Of a stretch of 39,152 nucleotides of DNA, positions 770 to 24,405 are shown piece after piece. The DNA is from Leptolyngbya sp. PCC 6406 (GTDB lineage: Bacteria; Cyanobacteriota; Cyanobacteriia; Phormidesmidales; Phormidesmidaceae). Position numbers and translations under genes: made by a program. Below the pieces are notes generated by a model. It was not told the DNA's origin. It did no database searches and saw only the letters and a program-made list of their open reading frames with translations. The stretch spans positions 3,880,605-3,919,756 of the forward strand of contig NZ_KI913949.1 of assembly GCF_000332095.2 (NCBI RefSeq), written 5' to 3'. Every line of letters begins with the position of its first letter. Within the stretch, counting starts at the first letter, position 1.

Positions 770-844
770 GTGTTCAAGGTTCCCTGGCAAACTAAGATTC
801 CTAACCCTAGTATACCTAAACACTAAACTTCATAATAGAAGGCC

Positions 845-1270
845 GAGTCTCTGGGGCGAGTTGGCACAACACAACGTAGGTGCAGCCTTGCCGAAGGGTA
901 GCCTGTTGGTTCAGGGGATACGGTAAATGGCACAGAACCCTAAGGCGCTGGGGACGGCCCAAAGTTGGGCAACAAGCGTCAAAGGAGCAGAAGCCAGCGG
1001 AGGCTATAGTAGTCAAACGCTGGTCTTGCAATGGGTCAGACAAGGCAAAGGGCCGAACTATGGAAAGTAGAGAGGAGCTGCCGGGGCTCGTTCTGAGCGT
1101 TGAACCCGATCGGGGGAGCTATAGGAACGGCGCTTAAGGGTGTAGCCAGCTTTGGGAGTCGGAGTTAAAAGAGTCTTGATTTCTAAAACTTTCTGAGGAA
1201 CCGCCCGGTACGGACCCGCACGCCGGGTAATTTGGGAGGGGTAAATCGTGAGGGTTTCCCTTATTCCCAT
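845..1270 (+). mobile_element. Group II intron remnant, ORF-less, 5' end missing
   Basis: No coding frame in this stretch resembles a protein. The 3' part reads like a group II intron end: a domain V-like hairpin at about 1199-1232 (arms CCCGG/CCGGG, two-base bulge, short distal stem with one mismatch, GACC-type loop), then a G-rich joint and a short domain VI-like hairpin ending near CCCAT at 1266-1270. The stretch at about 985-1010 (GGAGCAGAAGCCAGCGGAGG) resembles the leader that precedes reverse transcriptase genes in cyanobacterial introns. The reverse transcriptase is absent, and no clear GTGYG 5' end is visible before the vapB gene. It is read on the + strand, opposite to the neighbouring cassette genes. 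This is an inference from memory of such introns; a covariance search was not run. Confidence 0.45.
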
Positions 1271-1975: not shown

Positions 1976-2128
1976 CAGACCTCTCCAGCAACTCTTGTGT
2001 CTATTTTAGATGGCTGTTGTCTCTATCAACCTGGAAAGCAGCTTTAGCCAAGGATCTTGCGCCACCTAACTTCAAATGCCAACAGATAAGCTTTCGGTTA
2101 CGTCCCAACCGAGGACTTGCGGCATAAC
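1838..2128. repeat. Direct repeat copy A, shared head of two cassettes
   Basis: About 290 bases here recur at 2513-2810 with scattered substitutions. The copy covers the first half of the antitoxin-like gene at 1703-1975 and its upstream region, and ends at the attC half-site GCATAAC (2122-2128). The shared end at a recombination core means both copies occupy the same position behind an attC, as expected for a duplicated gene cassette. An inner pair, GCGTAAC/GTTAGGT on the minus strand about 40 bases apart, could be another very small attC, but its stem is weak. Confidence 0.85.
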
Positions 2129-2204
2129 GGTTCGGTTGAGCGTCTGTCAGCAACCTTTGCACGCTACCAAGATCTATCTTCAGTCCGCTCCAACCGGGTT
2201 ATGC
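2122..2204 (-). other. attC-like recombination site 1
   Basis: On the minus strand the site starts GCATAAC and ends with its exact complement GTTATGC. Inside are arms CGGTTGGAGCG and CGCTCAACCG, which pair over 10 bases and leave one extra G in the 5' arm. The two outer cores, two inner boxes and an extrahelical base in the first arm are the features of an integron attC. R' is GTTATGC rather than the strict GTTRRRY. The site lies at the end of the small gene at 2180-2416, whose stop codon falls within it. Confidence 0.7.
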
Positions 2205-2416
2205 TGCTGTCGCTGAGCAATTTGAATTAATAATCGCAGTGCCTCATTCACAGATGCATCTGTTGGAAAGGCTTGGGCGACATCAGGATCTAGGAGCACT
2301 AAGTTTGTTCCGGCTCGGTATCGCTCAACATACTTACCCCTTATGCCTCCTGCCATTTTGGAGAAGTCATATTCAGGGCGTAGTTCATCTTCCAGTTCGT
2401 CAATTTCCTTCTTCAT
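2180..2416 (-). CDS. Antitoxin-like cassette protein
   Basis: I take the start as the ATG at 2414-2416 because a good ribosome site (AGGAGA) lies about seven bases upstream. The frame is open further up, to 2494. The 78-residue product contains ELRPEYDFSKMAGGIRGKYV, then ERYRAGTNLVLLDPDVAQAFP and VNEALRLLIQIAQRQQ. This is a familiar cyanobacterial antitoxin-type sequence normally paired with a small toxin, but no toxin lies beside it. The last residues (HNPVGAD) and the TGA are encoded within attC site 1, as is usual for genes in integron cassettes. It looks like a solitary antitoxin carried as a cassette. Confidence 0.6.
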   Translation of the reverse strand: MKKEIDELEDELRPEYDFSKMAGGIRGKYVERYRAGTNLVLLDPDVAQAFPTDASVNEALRLLIQIAQRQQHNPVGAD

Positions 2417-2512
2417 AGAATCTCCTTTCTTGGGGAGTAGCTCTTCGAGCACTGATAATACGAGTGCGGTTTCCTCGGTCAGTGTGGGAGACAACTAACA
2501 ACTCGAATTTCA

Positions 2513-2810
2513 TAAAGAATTCACGTTTGTTTTTGAGGACTAAATACCAGCGTTTTCTGTTGGATTGAACTCAACAATGACTGTATTAAACGCTAGCGAT
2601 CGCCAATCGCGAATCGACAACTCCAATGCCTGATTTTGTATCTCTTGTAACGTCATCAGACTTCTCCAGCAACTTTTGTGTCTATTTTAGAGGGCTGTTG
2701 TCTCTATCAACCTGGAAAGCAGCTTTAGCCAAGGATCTTGCGCTACCTAACTTCAAATGCCAACAGATAAGCTTTTGGTTACGCCCCAACCGAGGGCTTG
2801 CGGCATAACG
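2513..2810. repeat. Direct repeat copy B
   Basis: This is the second copy of the 1838-2128 sequence, ending at the core GCATAAC (2803-2809) of attC site 2. Compared with copy A it carries a 7-base insertion near 2606 and several substitutions, so it is not a recent duplication. Confidence 0.85.
2536..2656 (-). pseudogene. Frameshifted copy of the antitoxin-like gene start
   Basis: From the ATG at 2654-2656 the frame gives MTLQEIQNQALELSIRD, matching the gene at 1703-1975. A 7-base insertion then shifts the frame, and a stop follows after about 39 codons. The homology itself continues to about 2513, after which unrelated sequence containing the cassette antitoxin gene follows. It is a broken duplicate whose promoter region may still drive the downstream gene at 2180-2416. 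Confidence 0.7.
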
Positions 2811-2891
2811 GCAAAGGTCAGCAGCGGCGGCAAACAAACTTGAACTCAGCACCAGTGGCTCTCGCCCGTCCGCTGCCGTGATATGTTAGAC
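2803..2891 (-). other. attC-like recombination site 2
   Basis: On the minus strand the site begins GTCTAAC (2891-2885) and ends GTTATGC (2809-2803). The inner arms contain GCAGCGG and its complement CCGCTGC about 50 bases apart. Pairing outside these seven bases is poorer than in the other sites, so this is the weakest of the four. It lies 52 bases after the stop of the PIN-like gene at 2944-4302 and has the same orientation as the others. Confidence 0.55.
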
Positions 2892-2943
2892 ATCCTTAAT
2901 CAATTGAAAAGATTCTTTGTACATCATTAGCTAGCATAAATAT

Positions 2944-4302
2944 TTATACTGCACCAGGATCATCTAGAGAGGATAAAAATTTTAGCGGGTCATGCACATT
3001 TATAGATTCACCTTCTAGTAACTCTGCTACAACCACCTCTATTCCTTGTCGGCTAATTCCTGTGAGCCATGAAGCGAGAGATTTAGCTGCCAAACTTGCA
3101 GATATTTCTGAATCAAAAACCAAAAATATCAGAATATTGTCAAATTCAAAGTCTTTTCGCTCATAATTTATTTCAAATTGATCAATGCTACTCTTGAGGT
3201 AAGCAACAATTTTCACATCATCAACGACATCATCAAAATATTCAATAGATATGAGTGTAGATGCCCCACCCCATTCTGACCAAACAAAATCTCCAAACTT
3301 ACCTTCACGATTGACCTCACAATAAGAAGCTTGACTACGTAACCAGTCACCAACCACTTTTTCTATATGGTGCTTCCTAACTTTTCGTTTGTAGGAATCA
3401 GGGTAAGCATAATTTGCTTTTATCTCTTCTCTACGAACCTCTCCAATTGCTTTGTCCGTAACGCCGAATAGTTCTAAAAAACTTGAAAAGGAGATTATAT
3501 GCAAGCTCTTTCCGTCAGAAACCCTCCTAATTTCATCCACCAATTCAAATCTAGGGAATAATGGCTGGTTTTCTACTCGGTAAAACCAGTCAGCTTTTGA
3601 ATCATCTGAAACTAAAACAACTGGCTGCTTACGTTCTTTAGCAACATGCACTACAACTTGCCAAACTAAATGATCACCAATTCCCTGATCATCTTTAGCA
3701 GCATCTTTATAGCCCGGAGGCAACTTGTTTTCTTTCTGATATTTCAATCTACTGACAATAACTTCTTCATCTAAATCCAGATCCAAAATAGCTGCTGGAA
3801 ATATTTCGCTATACAGTTGACTTACAGGATCATTCCAATTCCAGGATTTAATATGACTTAAAAGATCTCCAATCGCTGCTTGATATTCTTTTATCAAGGT
3901 ACCAATCTTTTCTTCTAGCTCCTGAACTTCAGGATAACCTTTAGCATCTTCTAAAAGAGGATAACGACCTTTGTTAGGACTGGCTATACTTCGCTTCCTG
4001 CTCAATGCCCGAAAAATTTCTGCTATTTTTACAGGTCTATTTTTTGCAAACTCTCTTGCCACCTGACCTGGAACTACCAATCTATTGGAATTTACTAAAT
4101 ATTTATAAGTAGCAGCAATTTGAGATAAGCTATTTTTACTAATTCCATAAGGAACGAGAAGAGCATTGGTATCTAGAACCACAGTGCATTCTTCCCGGAT
4201 TTCTTCTAGAGCTTTGTATCCTTCATAGAAAATACCCTTTGCATCAGGATAGATCTTGCTCGAAACAAATATATCTGGAGGTTCTTGTTTCTTATCGCTC
4301 AT
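2944..4302 (-). CDS. PIN-like domain protein (DUF4935 type), cassette gene
   Basis: The 452-residue protein has a PIN nuclease fold in its first half. TVVLDTNALLVPYG (residues 40-53) holds the first catalytic Asp (D44) and N46; VPGQVAREFAKNR follows at about 78-90; DQGIGDHLVWQVVVHVAKE and PVVLVSDDSKADW supply the later acidic residues. This spacing, with a long helical insert (about 95-200), matches the PIN-like DUF4935 family, which often occurs singly in defence or mobile regions. The C-terminal 170 residues are unrecognised and could be a target-sensing part. Base composition is clearly AT-richer than the housekeeping genes, a sign of transfer. It is bracketed by attC sites 2 and 3, so it appears to be a single-gene cassette. 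Confidence 0.65.
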   Translation of the reverse strand: MSDKKQEPPDIFVSSKIYPDAKGIFYEGYKALEEIREECTVVLDTNALLVPYGISKNSLSQIAATYKYLVNSNRLVVPGQVAREFAKNRPVKIAEIFRALSRKRSIASPNKGRYPLLEDAKGYPEVQELEEKIGTLIKEYQAAIGDLLSHIKSWNWNDPVSQLYSEIFPAAILDLDLDEEVIVSRLKYQKENKLPPGYKDAAKDDQGIGDHLVWQVVVHVAKERKQPVVLVSDDSKADWFYRVENQPLFPRFELVDEIRRVSDGKSLHIISFSSFLELFGVTDKAIGEVRREEIKANYAYPDSYKRKVRKHHIEKVVGDWLRSQASYCEVNREGKFGDFVWSEWGGASTLISIEYFDDVVDDVKIVAYLKSSIDQFEINYERKDFEFDNILIFLVFDSEISASLAAKSLASWLTGISRQGIEVVVAELLEGESINVHDPLKFLSSLDDPGAV

Positions 4303-4373
4303 AAAAATAAAATCGAAAATTGGCTTATGGAATCAATTGGCTCTGAGTTCAGTACATGCTCCATCAATTAGAT

Positions 4374-4464
4374 GTCTAACGACGTGTTAAGCGGCTGCGG
4401 GTCGACAGAACAGCAGGAAACACGATGGATTCTCCCCGCAGTCCGCTTGAACGCATAGTTAGAC
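4374..4464 (-). other. attC-like recombination site 3 (best match)
   Basis: On the minus strand the site runs from GTCTAAC (4464-4458) to GTTAGAC (4380-4374), perfectly complementary and fitting RYYYAAC/GTTRRRY. Inner boxes GTTCAAGCGG and CCGCTTAAC pair with one extrahelical C, as in classical attC sites, and CTGCGGG/CCCGCAG extends the stem. The extra bases in the first arm show that the cassette genes are read on the minus strand, as the ORFs are. The stop codon of the gene at 4459-5106 is the TAA inside GTCTAAC. Confidence 0.85.
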
Positions 4465-5106
4465 CGCAGCACCGGAAAGCTCGGAAGCGATCTTTTCGAG
4501 AAACGGCTTGATCCGCCAATACCCGACCTTCGATTGGGCAATCTCGACATCAATCTGCTTCTCCGCCTCGGACTCGATGTGAGCAAGGTTTCTGAGCGCG
4601 TATACGTGCTTTATGTCCTCGGCGTACGCCTCATCCACTAGTCCAATTCGCACGGCACAGTCGACTTTGTCCTTGAATGGAATGCTGTTTCGGGGTGTTT
4701 TCGAATCGCGGTAGACGCAAGTGAATACCTCCTCGTCACCGAATTGCATCTTTGTAAGGTTTCCGAACGCTGAGACCGGCTTGTAAGCCTTATGTGTTTG
4801 AAGAGCTTTAACCTCTGGGTGCTCAGCAAACGTGCTCCAGAGCAGGAATGAGATCACCGCCTCGTAGATGGCGGCGTACTGCGCGATCTGAAACTTTACG
4901 AAAGCGTGAACTTCGTCGCTTGTGGCTTGCATTGCTTCCATCAGCTTTGCCATATATCGAGCTGAATAGAACGCTCGCCCCAAGCGTTTCCTAAGCTCTT
5001 CGTTCTCAATAAATGCGAACTGAGCTACGTGCCAATGGAGGTCCCCTGGCAAGTCCCGCACACAGTAGGCGTGAATCGACTCGCGCAGATGAGGTTGAAG
5101 TGGCAT
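4459..5106 (-). CDS. Unknown cassette protein with an RN-x-x-H motif
   Basis: I choose the ATG at 5104-5106 (MPLQPHLRES) because AAGGA stands eight bases upstream. The frame can be extended to a GTG at 5133, but that would run through the attC core. The 215-residue product is mainly helical and not recognised. Two features stand out: a long central helix pair (about 45-100), and YALRNLAHIE at 169-178, which resembles the R-N-x-x-H segment of HEPN-like nucleases. The latter is suggestive only. The gene ends inside attC site 3 and starts 16 bases after the core of site 4, so it fills one cassette almost completely. Confidence 0.6.
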   Translation of the reverse strand: MPLQPHLRESIHAYCVRDLPGDLHWHVAQFAFIENEELRKRLGRAFYSARYMAKLMEAMQATSDEVHAFVKFQIAQYAAIYEAVISFLLWSTFAEHPEVKALQTHKAYKPVSAFGNLTKMQFGDEEVFTCVYRDSKTPRNSIPFKDKVDCAVRIGLVDEAYAEDIKHVYALRNLAHIESEAEKQIDVEIAQSKVGYWRIKPFLEKIASELSGAAV

Positions 5107-5121
5107 GTACTTTTCCTTGCG

Positions 5122-5177
5122 GTCTAACGTCACCGATCAGCGGGGCCGAAGGCCTCCGCTGCATCGGCTTGTTGGGA
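5122..5177 (-). other. attC-like recombination site 4 (short form)
   Basis: On the minus strand the site runs from TCCCAAC (5177-5171, one mismatch to RYYYAAC) to GTTAGAC (5128-5122). Between them CCGATGCAGCGG and CCGCTGATCGG pair completely except for one extra G in the first arm, and GGCC/GGCC with a small loop closes the hairpin. At 56 bases it is the size of the classical 59-base element. The stop codon of the gene upstream in reading direction (5130-5132) lies within it. Confidence 0.8.
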
Positions 5178-5489
5178 GCGAACTCCAATCACCCTCTTCC
5201 ATGCTTTCATCATATCAACGGCACACATGGCCTTCGTTACATCAAAAGACATTCCCATTCTATCTTCCATGACCCATCGCATCTACTTTATCAACCCAGA
5301 ATCATCGTCGCTTAATAACTTTGAATATATACCGTTTACATATCCACTATATTCATCTCGGGCTTCTGGTATCCCAGATATCCCGATTGGATCCCACTTG
5401 AAGTGTACGATTTCTTCAATTCTTGTAAAAAGCTCTGCATCCATCTTCATTAGCCAATCTGGTGGGTTTTTCATGTTGGCATTGTGCAT
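5130..5489 (-). pseudogene. Small conserved cassette gene with an in-frame TAG
   Basis: The first 68 codons give KMDAELFTRIEEIVHFKWDP followed by IGISGIPEARDEYSGYV, a small conserved hypothetical family I recognise by its W-D-P-I-G and A-R-D-E-Y motifs. A TAG at 5283-5285 then interrupts the frame. Reading on in the same frame gives MRWVMEDRMGMSFDVTKA, the expected continuation of the family (ERMGL-type segment), up to TGA at 5130 inside attC site 4. So the only visible lesion is one amber codon, giving 119 codons otherwise. Start could be 5489 or the ATG at 5474. A core-like GCTCAAC at 5494-5500 (GTTGAGC on the coding strand) lies directly upstream. Function unknown. Confidence 0.65.
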
Positions 5490-5520
5490 TGACGCTCAAC
5501 TATGTATTAAGTATCAAAAG

Positions 5521-5726
5521 TGACGGATAAGTCCGGTGTCGGTGGTGTTATCCGTCACTTTTGACAGATAAGTCCGAGATTGCGGGCATTATACGTCAAC
5601 TTTGACGGATAAGTCCGGTGTCGGTGGTGTTATCCGTCACTTTTGACAGATAAGTCCGAGATTGCGAACGTTATACGTCAACTTTGACGGATAAGATCCT
5701 GTATCGGGGTGTTATCCGTTAAACGA
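5521..5726. repeat. Tandem array of 41-bp hairpin units
   Basis: An 82-base unit starts at 5521, 5603 and (partial) 5685. Each unit is two related 41-base halves that begin TGACGGATAA or TGACAGATAA and contain, about 26 bases on, TTATCCGTCA or TTATACGTCA. Every half can therefore fold into a hairpin with a stem of about ten bases. Five half-units are visible; the last is degenerate at 5685-5726. There is no gene in it. Its edge coincides with the broken end of the RelE-type remnant. Confidence 0.9.
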
Positions 5727-5749: not shown

Positions 5750-5930
5750 CGGTTGCTTGAACAGGTCAGGCAAGCCATAGGGAAATTGCTTGAAGTGGCA
5801 GCGGCGAATACTCCCTTCCAGCACCTGCCAAGCTTGTGGGTTGGTCAAAATGCGCTGAATCGTGGTGTCGATTTCATCCAGAAACTCCCGACCCAGCCCA
5901 GAATGGTTGGATTTATAAAACTCAGCCCTG
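5750..5930 (-). pseudogene. RelE/ParE-type toxin fragment
   Basis: The minus strand encodes GRAEFYKSNHSGLGREFLDE, then IDTTIQRILTNPQAWQVLEG and IRRCHFKQFPYG, the middle portion of a RelE/ParE toxin. The usual N-terminal segment is replaced by unrelated residues next to the 5969 gene. The C-terminal part (the strand after FPYG, with the family's basic tail) is missing and runs into the hairpin array. No antitoxin is adjacent. I regard it as a two-sided remnant. Confidence 0.7.
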
Positions 5931-5968
5931 CCCCTTACACTGGGGCCATCGGCTGAGACAGACATCCC

Positions 5969-11760: not shown

Positions 11761-11802
11761 AAAGCCAGATCGCACGTCGTTTTGGTACCCAAGACCAGAA
11801 TC

Positions 11803-11880
11803 AACGCTTTCCTCCGCTGGTATTAACCAGGTCAGGTTCTGAGGGTATGATCTCAGCCCGATTACTCGGACACCCCTAGC
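11803..11880 (-). promoter_or_regulatory. TPP (THI-element) riboswitch upstream of thiC
   Basis: Read on the minus strand, the leader has the consensus in the right order: GGGGTGTCC, GGGCTGAGA, ATACCC, GAACCTGA, CTGGTTAATACCAGCG and GGAGGAA. These are the P1-P5 parts of the thiamine pyrophosphate aptamer. A possible -10 element (TATGAT on the minus strand, 11895-11890) lies just upstream of the aptamer without a clear -35. The distance to the thiC ATG is 270 bases. Confidence 0.95.
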
Positions 11881-11930
11881 TTGCTGCTCATCATAGATCA
11901 ATACGACCGTCTACCCTCCTTAAAACTGGC

Positions 11931-22031: not shown

Positions 22032-22229
22032 GGACTTTTAGGGGATGCACAAGCGCCCCTATTGTAGACCTGCGGTAGACCTGCTATTGGTGGGGCTGAG
22101 GTCTTTACAGCAAGTCCTCTATCCAGATAACGGTGAAGTTGTGCAGCAACAAATAACCTTAAACTCTCACCGATATCTCTATGCCGTCCGCACCAACGCA
22201 GTTATGGGGAGACGGGAAGGACAACTAGA
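22032..22229. other. Intergenic region upstream of mutS
   Basis: Upstream of the mutS start I see no convincing gene. A 79-residue open frame on the + strand (22045-22284) lacks any recognisable feature and overlaps the end of the next gene. The mutS promoter should lie here but is not clear. Confidence 0.4.
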
Positions 22230-22658
22230 TTACTCTGAGGCAGCAGGTTTTGGGCTAACTGCAAACTCTAGTTGTGAACGGTAAAAACACACATCAAACT
22301 CCATGAAAAAGTTCACCTGCCCTAATATGAGCGGCACATTGGTAGCTTGTGTCCAAGCAAATACTAGTTGTACAGCCTCAAACTGCCCAACGACAGCTTG
22401 AGCAAGCACGACACGCGCCTCGTACTGAGCCAAATTCCCTGTCAAACTCAGTGCTGTTGTTTGCCGATCCCATTCGTACCCAAGTTCAACTCCTATCGAA
22501 TATGGCAGTACATTCACACTTGCTCCAGTATCCAACAAAGCTGATGATATGATGGATACTTGCTGGTGAACCAGGGCAAATGGCAAGTACGGGCGAAAAC
22601 TGGCTTCGCCTAATGCTGTATCACTAGAGACAAATGGATATCGTTCAGCGTTACGCAT
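22230..22658 (-). CDS. Small retropepsin-like aspartic protease, paired with an antitoxin-like gene
   Basis: The 142-residue protein shows ALLDTGASVNVLPYSIG (active-site motif DTGAS), LTGNLAQYEARVVLAQAVVG and VPLILGQVNFFMEFDVCFY, the layout of single-domain clan AA aspartic proteases, which need dimerisation. It has no signal peptide, unlike the 11931-12758 protein. It overlaps the upstream small gene by 8 bases. The same gene pair occurs in other cyanobacteria, to my recollection. Its role is unknown. Confidence 0.75.
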   Translation of the reverse strand: MRNAERYPFVSSDTALGEASFRPYLPFALVHQQVSIISSALLDTGASVNVLPYSIGVELGYEWDRQTTALSLTGNLAQYEARVVLAQAVVGQFEAVQLVFAWTQATNVPLILGQVNFFMEFDVCFYRSQLEFAVSPKPAASE

Positions 22659-22866
22659 GGTCTCGAGTCTTGGCAGCCTGTAGAAATTTCAACATCGTAT
22701 CTGCTGCCTCAACTGCATCATAAGGCGACCATACTGGGTACGACTGGTTAGGTTTAATTAGATCCGTTTCCTGCTGGGCCAGTTCCGAGATCAGAATCTG
22801 CATGATATAGAACTTGTCTGAACGGCTCAGTTCTCTCAATGTCGAGATTAATTCTAAGGAAACCAT
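22651..22866 (-). CDS. Antitoxin-like small protein upstream of the retropepsin
   Basis: The 71-residue protein (MVSLELISTLRELSRSDKFY, then IMQILISELAQQE, then YPVWSPYDAVEAADTMLKFL) resembles the small antitoxins that precede PIN toxins in cyanobacteria: a short helical N-terminal half and a tail with a P-x-W-S-P-Y motif. A start three codons upstream (22875) is possible. The 8-base overlap with the protease gene indicates coupled translation. It may be a dimerising regulator or inhibitor of the protease, which is inference. Confidence 0.65.
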   Translation of the reverse strand: MVSLELISTLRELSRSDKFYIMQILISELAQQETDLIKPNQSYPVWSPYDAVEAADTMLKFLQAAKTRDHA

Positions 22867-22980
22867 TTCAAGCACTCCGGTCCAGCCAGGTTTATTTTTC
22901 CATCTTAAGCGCCCAGCCCATTATCGTGAAATGCTAGATTGCTGACGCTCAAAAGTTTGTTTGAAGATCAACAAACCTAT

Positions 22981-24405
22981 TTACCGCTTCACAGTTTTCA
23001 AAATAGTTTGAAAACGAGAGCTATTGCCGATTCTATCTAGCTTTTCAGTCGGAAAATTTCCAATAAATTCTAAGGCTAGTTTCACATTGGGATGGGTAGC
23101 TTGGTCAACTAATCGGCTTGCAAGTCTCTGGCAACGTGTTTGACAGGATGGAAATTGAAGGCGTGAGGCAATCTCCGAATCACGAGTTAGGTTAATAAAC
23201 TGAGATATCTGACTGTCTTGCCAACGATTGATCAGCATACTATAAATTGGCTCTGCACCAGATGAAACTCCATAACAATTGCCAATATGACACATGGTTA
23301 AGATCTTGACATATTTCCCTGAGACGTTACCTGGAATATTGCCGCTTGCCGGAACAAAAGATTGAAGTAATCTTGCGAGAGGTGGTTCATTGTAGAAGTT
23401 ATTCCAACCATTATGGGCAGCTAATAAAGCATCCAAGGCAGAAATTATCTCAATGGCAATAGTGTTGCCTGGTAAATAAGCTAATCCATTTACAATTGTG
23501 AGGAAATCACGAGCTAAATTTGCTCTGGAAACCTCTCCATTAGCTGAAAATGAGCCATGCCTTAAGCCAATATCGTATTTTGCATCCTCTGAGCAAACTT
23601 CCCACACTTCATATGCAAGGAATCGAATATTATTTCGGATATTTGCGTCTAATCTAGGATCGGTATACATTCCAAACGCTGTTCTCAAGAGAGAATGGGC
23701 TAGATCTTCAGGTAACCGTACAATCGCTTCTGCAATAGGAGGTACGTCAGTTCCAGAAAGAATTTCCTCTCGTACACTTCGTAGAAGCCGCTTTACTTCT
23801 ATAGCTGCACCTTCAGGCTCCTTTCCAAGAACCTCTTTTATGCAAGTTTCTAGCCACGATGCCAATTGCAAGCCCGTCAACTCGTTGTGATTGGGATGAG
23901 CAGCACTAGCATGGTTCCGCATATCGCGAATGTAATCTAAATGCCGATATCCAATATCACTAATAATTCCTGTTTCCCGACAACCTCTGACGAGTACCCA
24001 GTCGTCTAGCTTTTCCAGGTCACTTTCATCTCTAAATCTAGAGCGCTGATTCGCGTCTGTTATTGCAGTGTCATAAAAATAATCTAGATCAAACTGAACG
24101 ACTTTTAGTCGGAGATTTCGAATTGTCTCGTCCCAAAGATAATTTAGAGCTGCATCAAAAAGTCCTACAACGCAGGCTGCCGAGAACTTGGAGATGTACA
24201 TTGCACTATTACGCTGTCCTTCTGTAAGGGCAGGCATAATGTAGGGCATATTATTAATGACCTTTCGGCGCTCATCAAGCTCAACCAAAACCGAATCTGT
24301 TGGCAAACCAAGATATCCAAGGTATGTAGACAGACTTGTAGATAGTGAATCCAGCGTTTTAGCAAGTTCTACTGAAGAGGCTTGTAGTTGGATTTCTGAG
24401 GTCAT
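22981..24405 (-). CDS. Unknown 474-residue protein with HEPN-like R-x4-H motif
   Basis: I do not recognise the family. The protein is mostly helical. Residues 155-170 read HLDYIRDMRNHASAAH; R160-DMRN-H165 and R163-N-H165 resemble the RX4-6H active motif of HEPN ribonucleases, with helices before it (65-105, FSAACVVGLFDAALNYLWDE) as in that fold. The C-terminal half contains repeated helix pairs. Base composition is AT-richer than the flanking mutS and pap genes, suggesting transfer. A perfect palindrome upstream (24426-24446) could be its operator. Abortive-infection-type defence is a guess consistent with these signs. Confidence 0.6.
   Translation of the reverse strand: MTSEIQLQASSVELAKTLDSLSTSLSTYLGYLGLPTDSVLVELDERRKVINNMPYIMPALTEGQRNSAMYISKFSAACVVGLFDAALNYLWDETIRNLRLKVVQFDLDYFYDTAITDANQRSRFRDESDLEKLDDWVLVRGCRETGIISDIGYRHLDYIRDMRNHASAAHPNHNELTGLQLASWLETCIKEVLGKEPEGAAIEVKRLLRSVREEILSGTDVPPIAEAIVRLPEDLAHSLLRTAFGMYTDPRLDANIRNNIRFLAYEVWEVCSEDAKYDIGLRHGSFSANGEVSRANLARDFLTIVNGLAYLPGNTIAIEIISALDALLAAHNGWNNFYNEPPLARLLQSFVPASGNIPGNVSGKYVKILTMCHIGNCYGVSSGAEPIYSMLINRWQDSQISQFINLTRDSEIASRLQFPSCQTRCQRLASRLVDQATHPNVKLALEFIGNFPTEKLDRIGNSSRFQTILKTVKR

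Follow-up and report, generated by a model that had tools for sequence, protein, structure and literature searches.

The attI sites of integrons are known mainly from class 1 integrons and from Vibrio cholerae; in the available parts of PMC8946536, two accessory direct repeats are assigned to the attI1 of the former and no such repeats to the attIA of the latter. Published surveys already list Cyanobacteria among the carriers of integrons (PMC8618304, PMC8352920 and PMC2426708, in the sections available), clusters of attC sites lacking an integrase (CALINs in IntegronFinder terminology) appear as common in the accessible text of PMC9668308 and PMC9024848, and integron-associated group II introns are found as well in the accessible text of PMC7923331. 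An earlier note on the DNA analysed here, a 39,152-nt stretch of the cyanobacterium Leptolyngbya sp. PCC 6406 (the window), had regarded integrons as unusual for cyanobacteria, a view contradicted by these surveys and by our own counts. Among 386 sampled cyanobacterial genomes the integrase IntI was found over the curated cut-off in 22 and attC (E 1e-5) in at least 87, while 30 had IntI at E 1e-40 and 25 had both; 11 candidates per genome were scored in this attC search, so the attC figures are minimum values. Within the same family, each of the 17 genomes searched contained attC, with 2 to 46 matches, and IntI was present in 11 of the 17 at E 1e-30 (nine over the cut-off), with a full-length match without stop in five same-family genomes (G400, G399, G391, G396, G389). 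Less expected than cyanobacterial integrons themselves is an attI that is iterated. The integron history of the window locus is well supported, and we consider that it is probably a decayed sedentary chromosomal integron with such an iterated attI.

attC sites and cassettes

The attC sites of the window are genuine. The evidence comes from a covariance model (R1) trained on 18 attC from other cyanobacterial genomes, that of the window being excluded. The training sites were chosen beside intI genes with our own palindrome detector, one candidate (L056) being dropped for its poor alignment, and 15 of the 21 base pairs of the model had changes on both sides, with a covariation score of 0.492 against 0.144 for shuffles and at most 0.107 for slid controls. 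The earlier note had read four palindromes as attC and had proposed such a model, together with folding of the bottom strands, as checks. R1 matched the four of them, with E values from 2e-14 to 5e-7, and one further site, all on the minus strand: A (2122-2204, 83 nt; 62.6 bits, E 2.3e-14), B (2803-2891, 89 nt; 47.3 bits, E 2.7e-10), C (4374-4464, 91 nt; 34.8 bits, E 5.4e-7), D (5122-5177, 56 nt; 38.1 bits, E 7.1e-8) and the solitary site E (22125-22207; 40.5 bits, E 1.7e-8). Folding with DNA parameters was favourable for A, C and D, which did better than dinucleotide shuffles (z -2.7 to -4.3), and unfavourable for B (z -0.1 and 0.3), whose outer arms are partly mispaired. The palindrome detector scored A 13.9, B 12.5, C 17.9 and D 14.8, while base-shuffled sequence reached scores of at least 12, 13 and 14 with frequencies of 2.98, 0.81 and 0 per 100 kb, respectively; by this detector taken by itself C and D exceed chance, A does so marginally and B does not, and a first, strict detector had matched site C only. 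B is therefore the weakest site by folding and by the simple detector, yet it is well matched by R1. The Rfam scan of the window gave no attC family and no intron, the latter because the intron copy of the window (see below) lacks its 5' part. There is also a TPP riboswitch at 11792-11887 on the minus strand (69.6 bits, over gathering).

Sites of this type are spread over the source genome (5.78 Mb in three contigs). R1 gave 34 attC at E < 1e-3, or 35 with site C of the window, which went unscored in that search; 150 of 1781 candidates were scored, so the counts are lower bounds. These at least 35 sites lie in 25 places when those less than 4 kb apart are joined, the four of the window forming the largest cluster. 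The same palindromes might have recurred genome-wide between ordinary genes, unrelated to cassettes. They are indeed genome-wide, yet 27 of the 35 had an ORF of 60 aa or more on their own strand that ended within -120 to +40 of the edge of the attC, compared with 1079 of 4000 random positions (27%); opposite-strand ORFs ended there at 11 of the 35.

The cluster of the window comprises five cassettes that all point the same way; four have an attC and the fifth an attC scrap interrupted by an intron. The genes between the attC sites are all on the minus strand, as described before, but of the three said to stop inside an attC only those whose stops lie at 2180 and 4459 do so. The third, in cassette 1 (5128-5499, limits deduced from the cores of attI and attC), is the gene 5130-5489, broken by an in-frame TAG at 5283-5285, and to judge by this stop it is a pseudogene. 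Cassette 2 (4380-5127) carries a gene (4459-5106/5133) for which neither family profiles nor PADLOC gave a family, cassette 3 (2809-4379) a PIN_8-domain gene (2944-4302; PF18476, E 2.6e-31) and cassette 4 (2128-2808) the gene 2180-2416. In cassette 5 (1270-2127) the toxin-antitoxin genes suspected earlier are borne out by a HicA (1277-1504; PF07927, E 8.3e-20), accompanied by a weak HicB-like gene (1497-1706) and a weak antitoxin-like one (1703-1975). The possible defence genes fared worse, a PADLOC scan of seven proteins giving one weak match (E 0.0028). The leader of cassette 4 (2513-2811) is 93% identical to 1838-2130, the start of cassette 5, and these shared ca. 300 bp suggest a cassette duplication in which one gene may have been replaced later.

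The attC of cassette 5 has been cut down to TTAGAC, at the 3' junction of a group II intron whose 3' part alone remains (ca. 825-1269, plus strand). The scrap at about 1269 means that the array once had a fifth attC, which the intron had entered. This intron has 16 similar stretches in 11 places of the genome, and at five of these places an attC match lies no more than 0.5 kb away. A full copy (L148, 10895 to ca. 11634) starts inside an attC and ends before TTAGAC, just as the window copy ends before TTAGAC at the HicA stop, and it matches RF02001, RF01998 and RF00029 over gathering, families that do not settle its class. Other copies are at L154 (7178 to ca. 6460), L157 (14967), L158 (6248) and L219 (2497 to ca. 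1785). Four of five 5' ends abut an attC match (that of L219 does not), most of the scanned loci having been chosen for attC. Where both ends were found the intron measures about 710-740 nt, too short for a reverse transcriptase, and being multicopy it was probably served in trans.

Site E ends a probable solitary cassette (22208-22875, minus strand) that adjoins mutS and holds a retropepsin-like gene (22230-22658; PF13650, E 2.4e-7) and a small gene (22651-22875), with an ORF end 22 nt before the attC. On the mutS side, a comparison looking for an empty site showed similarity starting within about 5 nt of mutS in 11 relatives; the flanking gene opposite mutS is present in only one other of 29 relatives searched and yielded no empty site. 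The 474-aa gene at 22981-24405, of no known family, is 92% identical to a copy in G406, a genome of another family, and the 27 remaining relatives searched lack it, which looks like a recent transfer.

The attI of the window and the half-site pairs of other integrons

In the sense of the cassettes, the window presents a divergent intI scrap, five palindromes, TAA-TACATA-GTTGAGC and cassette 1. The crossover region (5494-5506, minus strand) is made up of an R box, GTTGAGC (5494-5500), and a 6-bp spacer (5501-5506) followed by the first palindrome. The array (5507-5694) consists of five 24-bp inverted half-site pairs (5507-5530, 5548-5571, 5589-5612, 5630-5653 and 5671-5694) at a pitch of 41 bp with 17-bp linkers, four of them near perfect. 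The TAA-N6-GTT spacing is that of attI1, the site being set by sequence and geometry alone. The half-site, TTATCCGTCA, differs from the motif common elsewhere, TTAKRCRGA, and falls below the threshold of that motif.

Repeats at attI were first noticed in the intact loci L008-L017, and the motif was counted in 80 named IntI loci plus six of these, with at least 180 nt upstream. In cyanobacteria inverted half-site pairs recur at 40-42 bp upstream of intI: there were 68 pairs in 24 loci against 2.2 expected, with at least one pair in all 24 and at least two in 19, and 29 of 44 gaps measured 39-41 bp. The seed loci from which the motif was taken are six of these 24, L069 and L082 are themselves contigs of two other seeds, and L113 is similar to L063. 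The 14 Chloroflexi loci had 11 pairs against 1.3 expected, and the 40 Proteobacterial and other loci showed no enrichment (3 pairs, 3.4 expected). A dyad count leaning lightly on the consensus gave 30 against 7.1 expected in cyanobacteria, 10 against 5.4 in Chloroflexi and 24 against 15.7 in the others; a consensus-free scan for 9-bp dyads gave a weak and mixed picture over many phyla. The periodicity also appears without any motif, the autocorrelation of 14 non-seed cyanobacterial loci peaking at lags 40 (z 7.7), 41 (z 7.3) and 82 (z 4.5). At lags 40 and 41 there was no peak in 11 upstream control regions (z 0.6 and -0.4) or in the body of intI (z -2.5 and -0.1, with codon-related peaks at other lags), nor were these lags enriched in Chloroflexi (z 0.1 and 0.8) despite the motif enrichment there; other phyla had their own peaks at lags 15 and 39. 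We found no account of tandem palindromes at attI in the open-access literature on attI and cyanobacterial integrons, for example in the available text of PMC9176274 and PMC4792948, subscription papers and preprints lying outside this scope.

We propose that IntI once inserted cassettes at the G^TT of the window attI and folded the attC bottom strands. The palindromes would be additional half-sites for IntI that repeat the L/DR1 pair of attI1 several times over and served to load or position the integrase. With the later loss of intI the cassettes would have become frozen, save for any integrase supplied in trans. Binding of IntI to the palindromes is suggested by their position, their geometry and a weak correlation between IntI distance and half-site distance (r 0.30 over 23 loci, 45 of 5000 permutations being as high, host phylogeny not separated out). 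A different reading, which we hold to be rather unlikely, takes them for an operator array of a host or integron-encoded regulator that controls Pint/Pc and goes unused by IntI. Their place, with intI on one side and the first cassette on the other, is indeed one expected of promoters, their near-integral helical spacing is typical of operators, and LexA motifs are reported upstream of other intI genes, diverging in cyanobacteria (PMC3108266, in the part available). However, in 14 of the 24 cyanobacterial loci, with 1.3 expected, the outermost unit is tied to the crossover (RYYYAAC-N6-unit); when seeds and seed contigs are left out, the figure is 8 of 16. The outer arm of this unit is the L box. 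The pair geometry is the same in attI1, and half-site divergence tracks IntI divergence, with the same proviso on host phylogeny.

Extending the integrase half-site reading to the phylum, we lean slightly towards the view that cyanobacterial integrons have an iterated attI of one to six inverted half-site pairs at intervals of 40-42 bp (close to four turns of the helix), tied to the crossover and serving a phased assembly of the integrase, and that these landing pads outlive the integrase, several of them persisting in some genomes. Integrons in general can function without such an array, given the absence of the motif at Proteobacterial and other loci and an attIA without repeats. With phased, paired half-sites at the attI of cyanobacteria, the part played by accessory integrase sites would become accessible to testing, and the array would serve as a sequence signature of attI where intI has been lost and would show the number of decayed integron platforms in the phylum.

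Remains of intI and attI-like copies

The intI of the window is a divergent N-terminal scrap (MMTQPQMLRLLEQVRQA, 5726 to ca. 5775, plus strand, right end approximate), truncated to about its first 16 codons. With a matrix built from 21 IntI proteins, the N-terminus LLEQVRQAI at 5753 scored 29.2 bits, the next best of 78246 window positions reaching 11.3, and no position in 14 other stretches of the genome (377216 positions) attained that score. It is joined to a possible ParE-type toxin fragment (5775-5962, minus strand; PF05016, E 0.061, below the cut-off). No intact IntI was found in the genome: TIGR02249, at E up to 10, gave no match over the cut-off and only three stretches, two IntI fragments and one of a generic recombinase. 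A functional intI with the IntI-specific domain is missing from the window, where only the N-terminal scrap stands. TBLASTN on genome stretches added an IntI N-terminal scrap on contig C3 (L158), and other scraps are found at L038 and L040. Those of L040 (8986-9135, chromosome) and L158 (7324-7422, contig C3) are N-terminal and have a TGA at the same codon, which could reflect either copying after the stop arose or parallel change. The description of the array as lacking an integrase thus holds for an intact enzyme detectable in the genome and fails for the locus itself, which has an attI and an intI scrap at the head of the array and is for this reason not a bare attC cluster. At such loci the label "integrase-less" can hide a truncated platform.

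Allowing two mismatches, 17 window-type palindromes were found in eight places of the genome, against none for a reversed-pattern control, and seven of the eight places lie within 4.5 kb of an attC. At L038 window-type repeats and TTAATACATAGTT follow an internal IntI fragment. Among relatives the palindrome pattern matched seven genomes, although G062 and G400 had unrelated-looking single matches and G388 a match to the control. Window-type arrays with five units at exactly 42 bp are found in same-family genomes (L201, L202 and L203 of G394; L210 of G387), and of 13 stretches around such arrays and an IntI fragment, nine carried attC (L199-L206, L208). We considered whether these palindromes (YGTCA) belong to some other integrase and rejected it; decayed IntI of the ordinary type is among their neighbours in relatives (L205, L206, L209) and was also seen in L199 and L201-L203 by reading translations. 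In the same-family genome G394, where IntI gave no match at 1e-30, there are six attI-array places (L199-L204), each stretch with attC and at least four with a common decayed intI start, as if an integrase-less platform had multiplied.

The number of these copies raises the alternative, which seems to us improbable, that they are still in use, an undetected or occasional integrase acting in trans on many attI-like sites. The near-perfect window palindromes, the closeness of attC to seven of the eight places and the situation of G394 speak for it. Against it, the search for IntI at E 10 yielded only fragments and a generic recombinase stretch, the broken gene lies in cassette 1, and the GTT core has been lost in some copies (L059 from 9331 onward, L201). 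That an attC cluster arrived without any platform, scrap and palindromes being coincidental, is very improbable and largely refuted, common as CALINs are and although 62 of the 87 attC-bearing genomes in the phylum sample lack IntI at E 1e-40, by the joint presence of IntI N-terminus, attI spacing and array in canonical divergent order and by the same palindromes beside the IntI fragment of L038.

Comparison with described systems

The introns resemble most closely group IIC-attC introns, which we take to be the closest known ones, in lying within attC in the opposite orientation to the cassette, and differ in having copies of about 740 nt, which leaves no room for a reverse transcriptase. With CALINs the locus shares at least two attC (four within 3.1 kb) and no intact intI nearby; unlike them it keeps attI and an intI scrap, which makes it an eroded platform. 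With the sedentary chromosomal integrons of cyanobacteria it has in common an attI, cassettes in one orientation, attC with conserved inner boxes and a divergent intI, and it departs from them in that intI is only a scrap, in having several attI-like copies and in the iteration of attI. The attI1 sequence used for this comparison agrees with 4897 of the 5000 best plasmid records at 99% or more. The window sequence contains the elements of attI1, namely the TAA-N6-GTT simple site with its 6-bp spacer and an inverted accessory half-site corresponding to the L/DR1 pair (25 bp in attI1). However, attI1 has a single pair plus DR2 among its L, R, DR1 and DR2 elements, whereas the window has five pairs at a 41-bp pitch.
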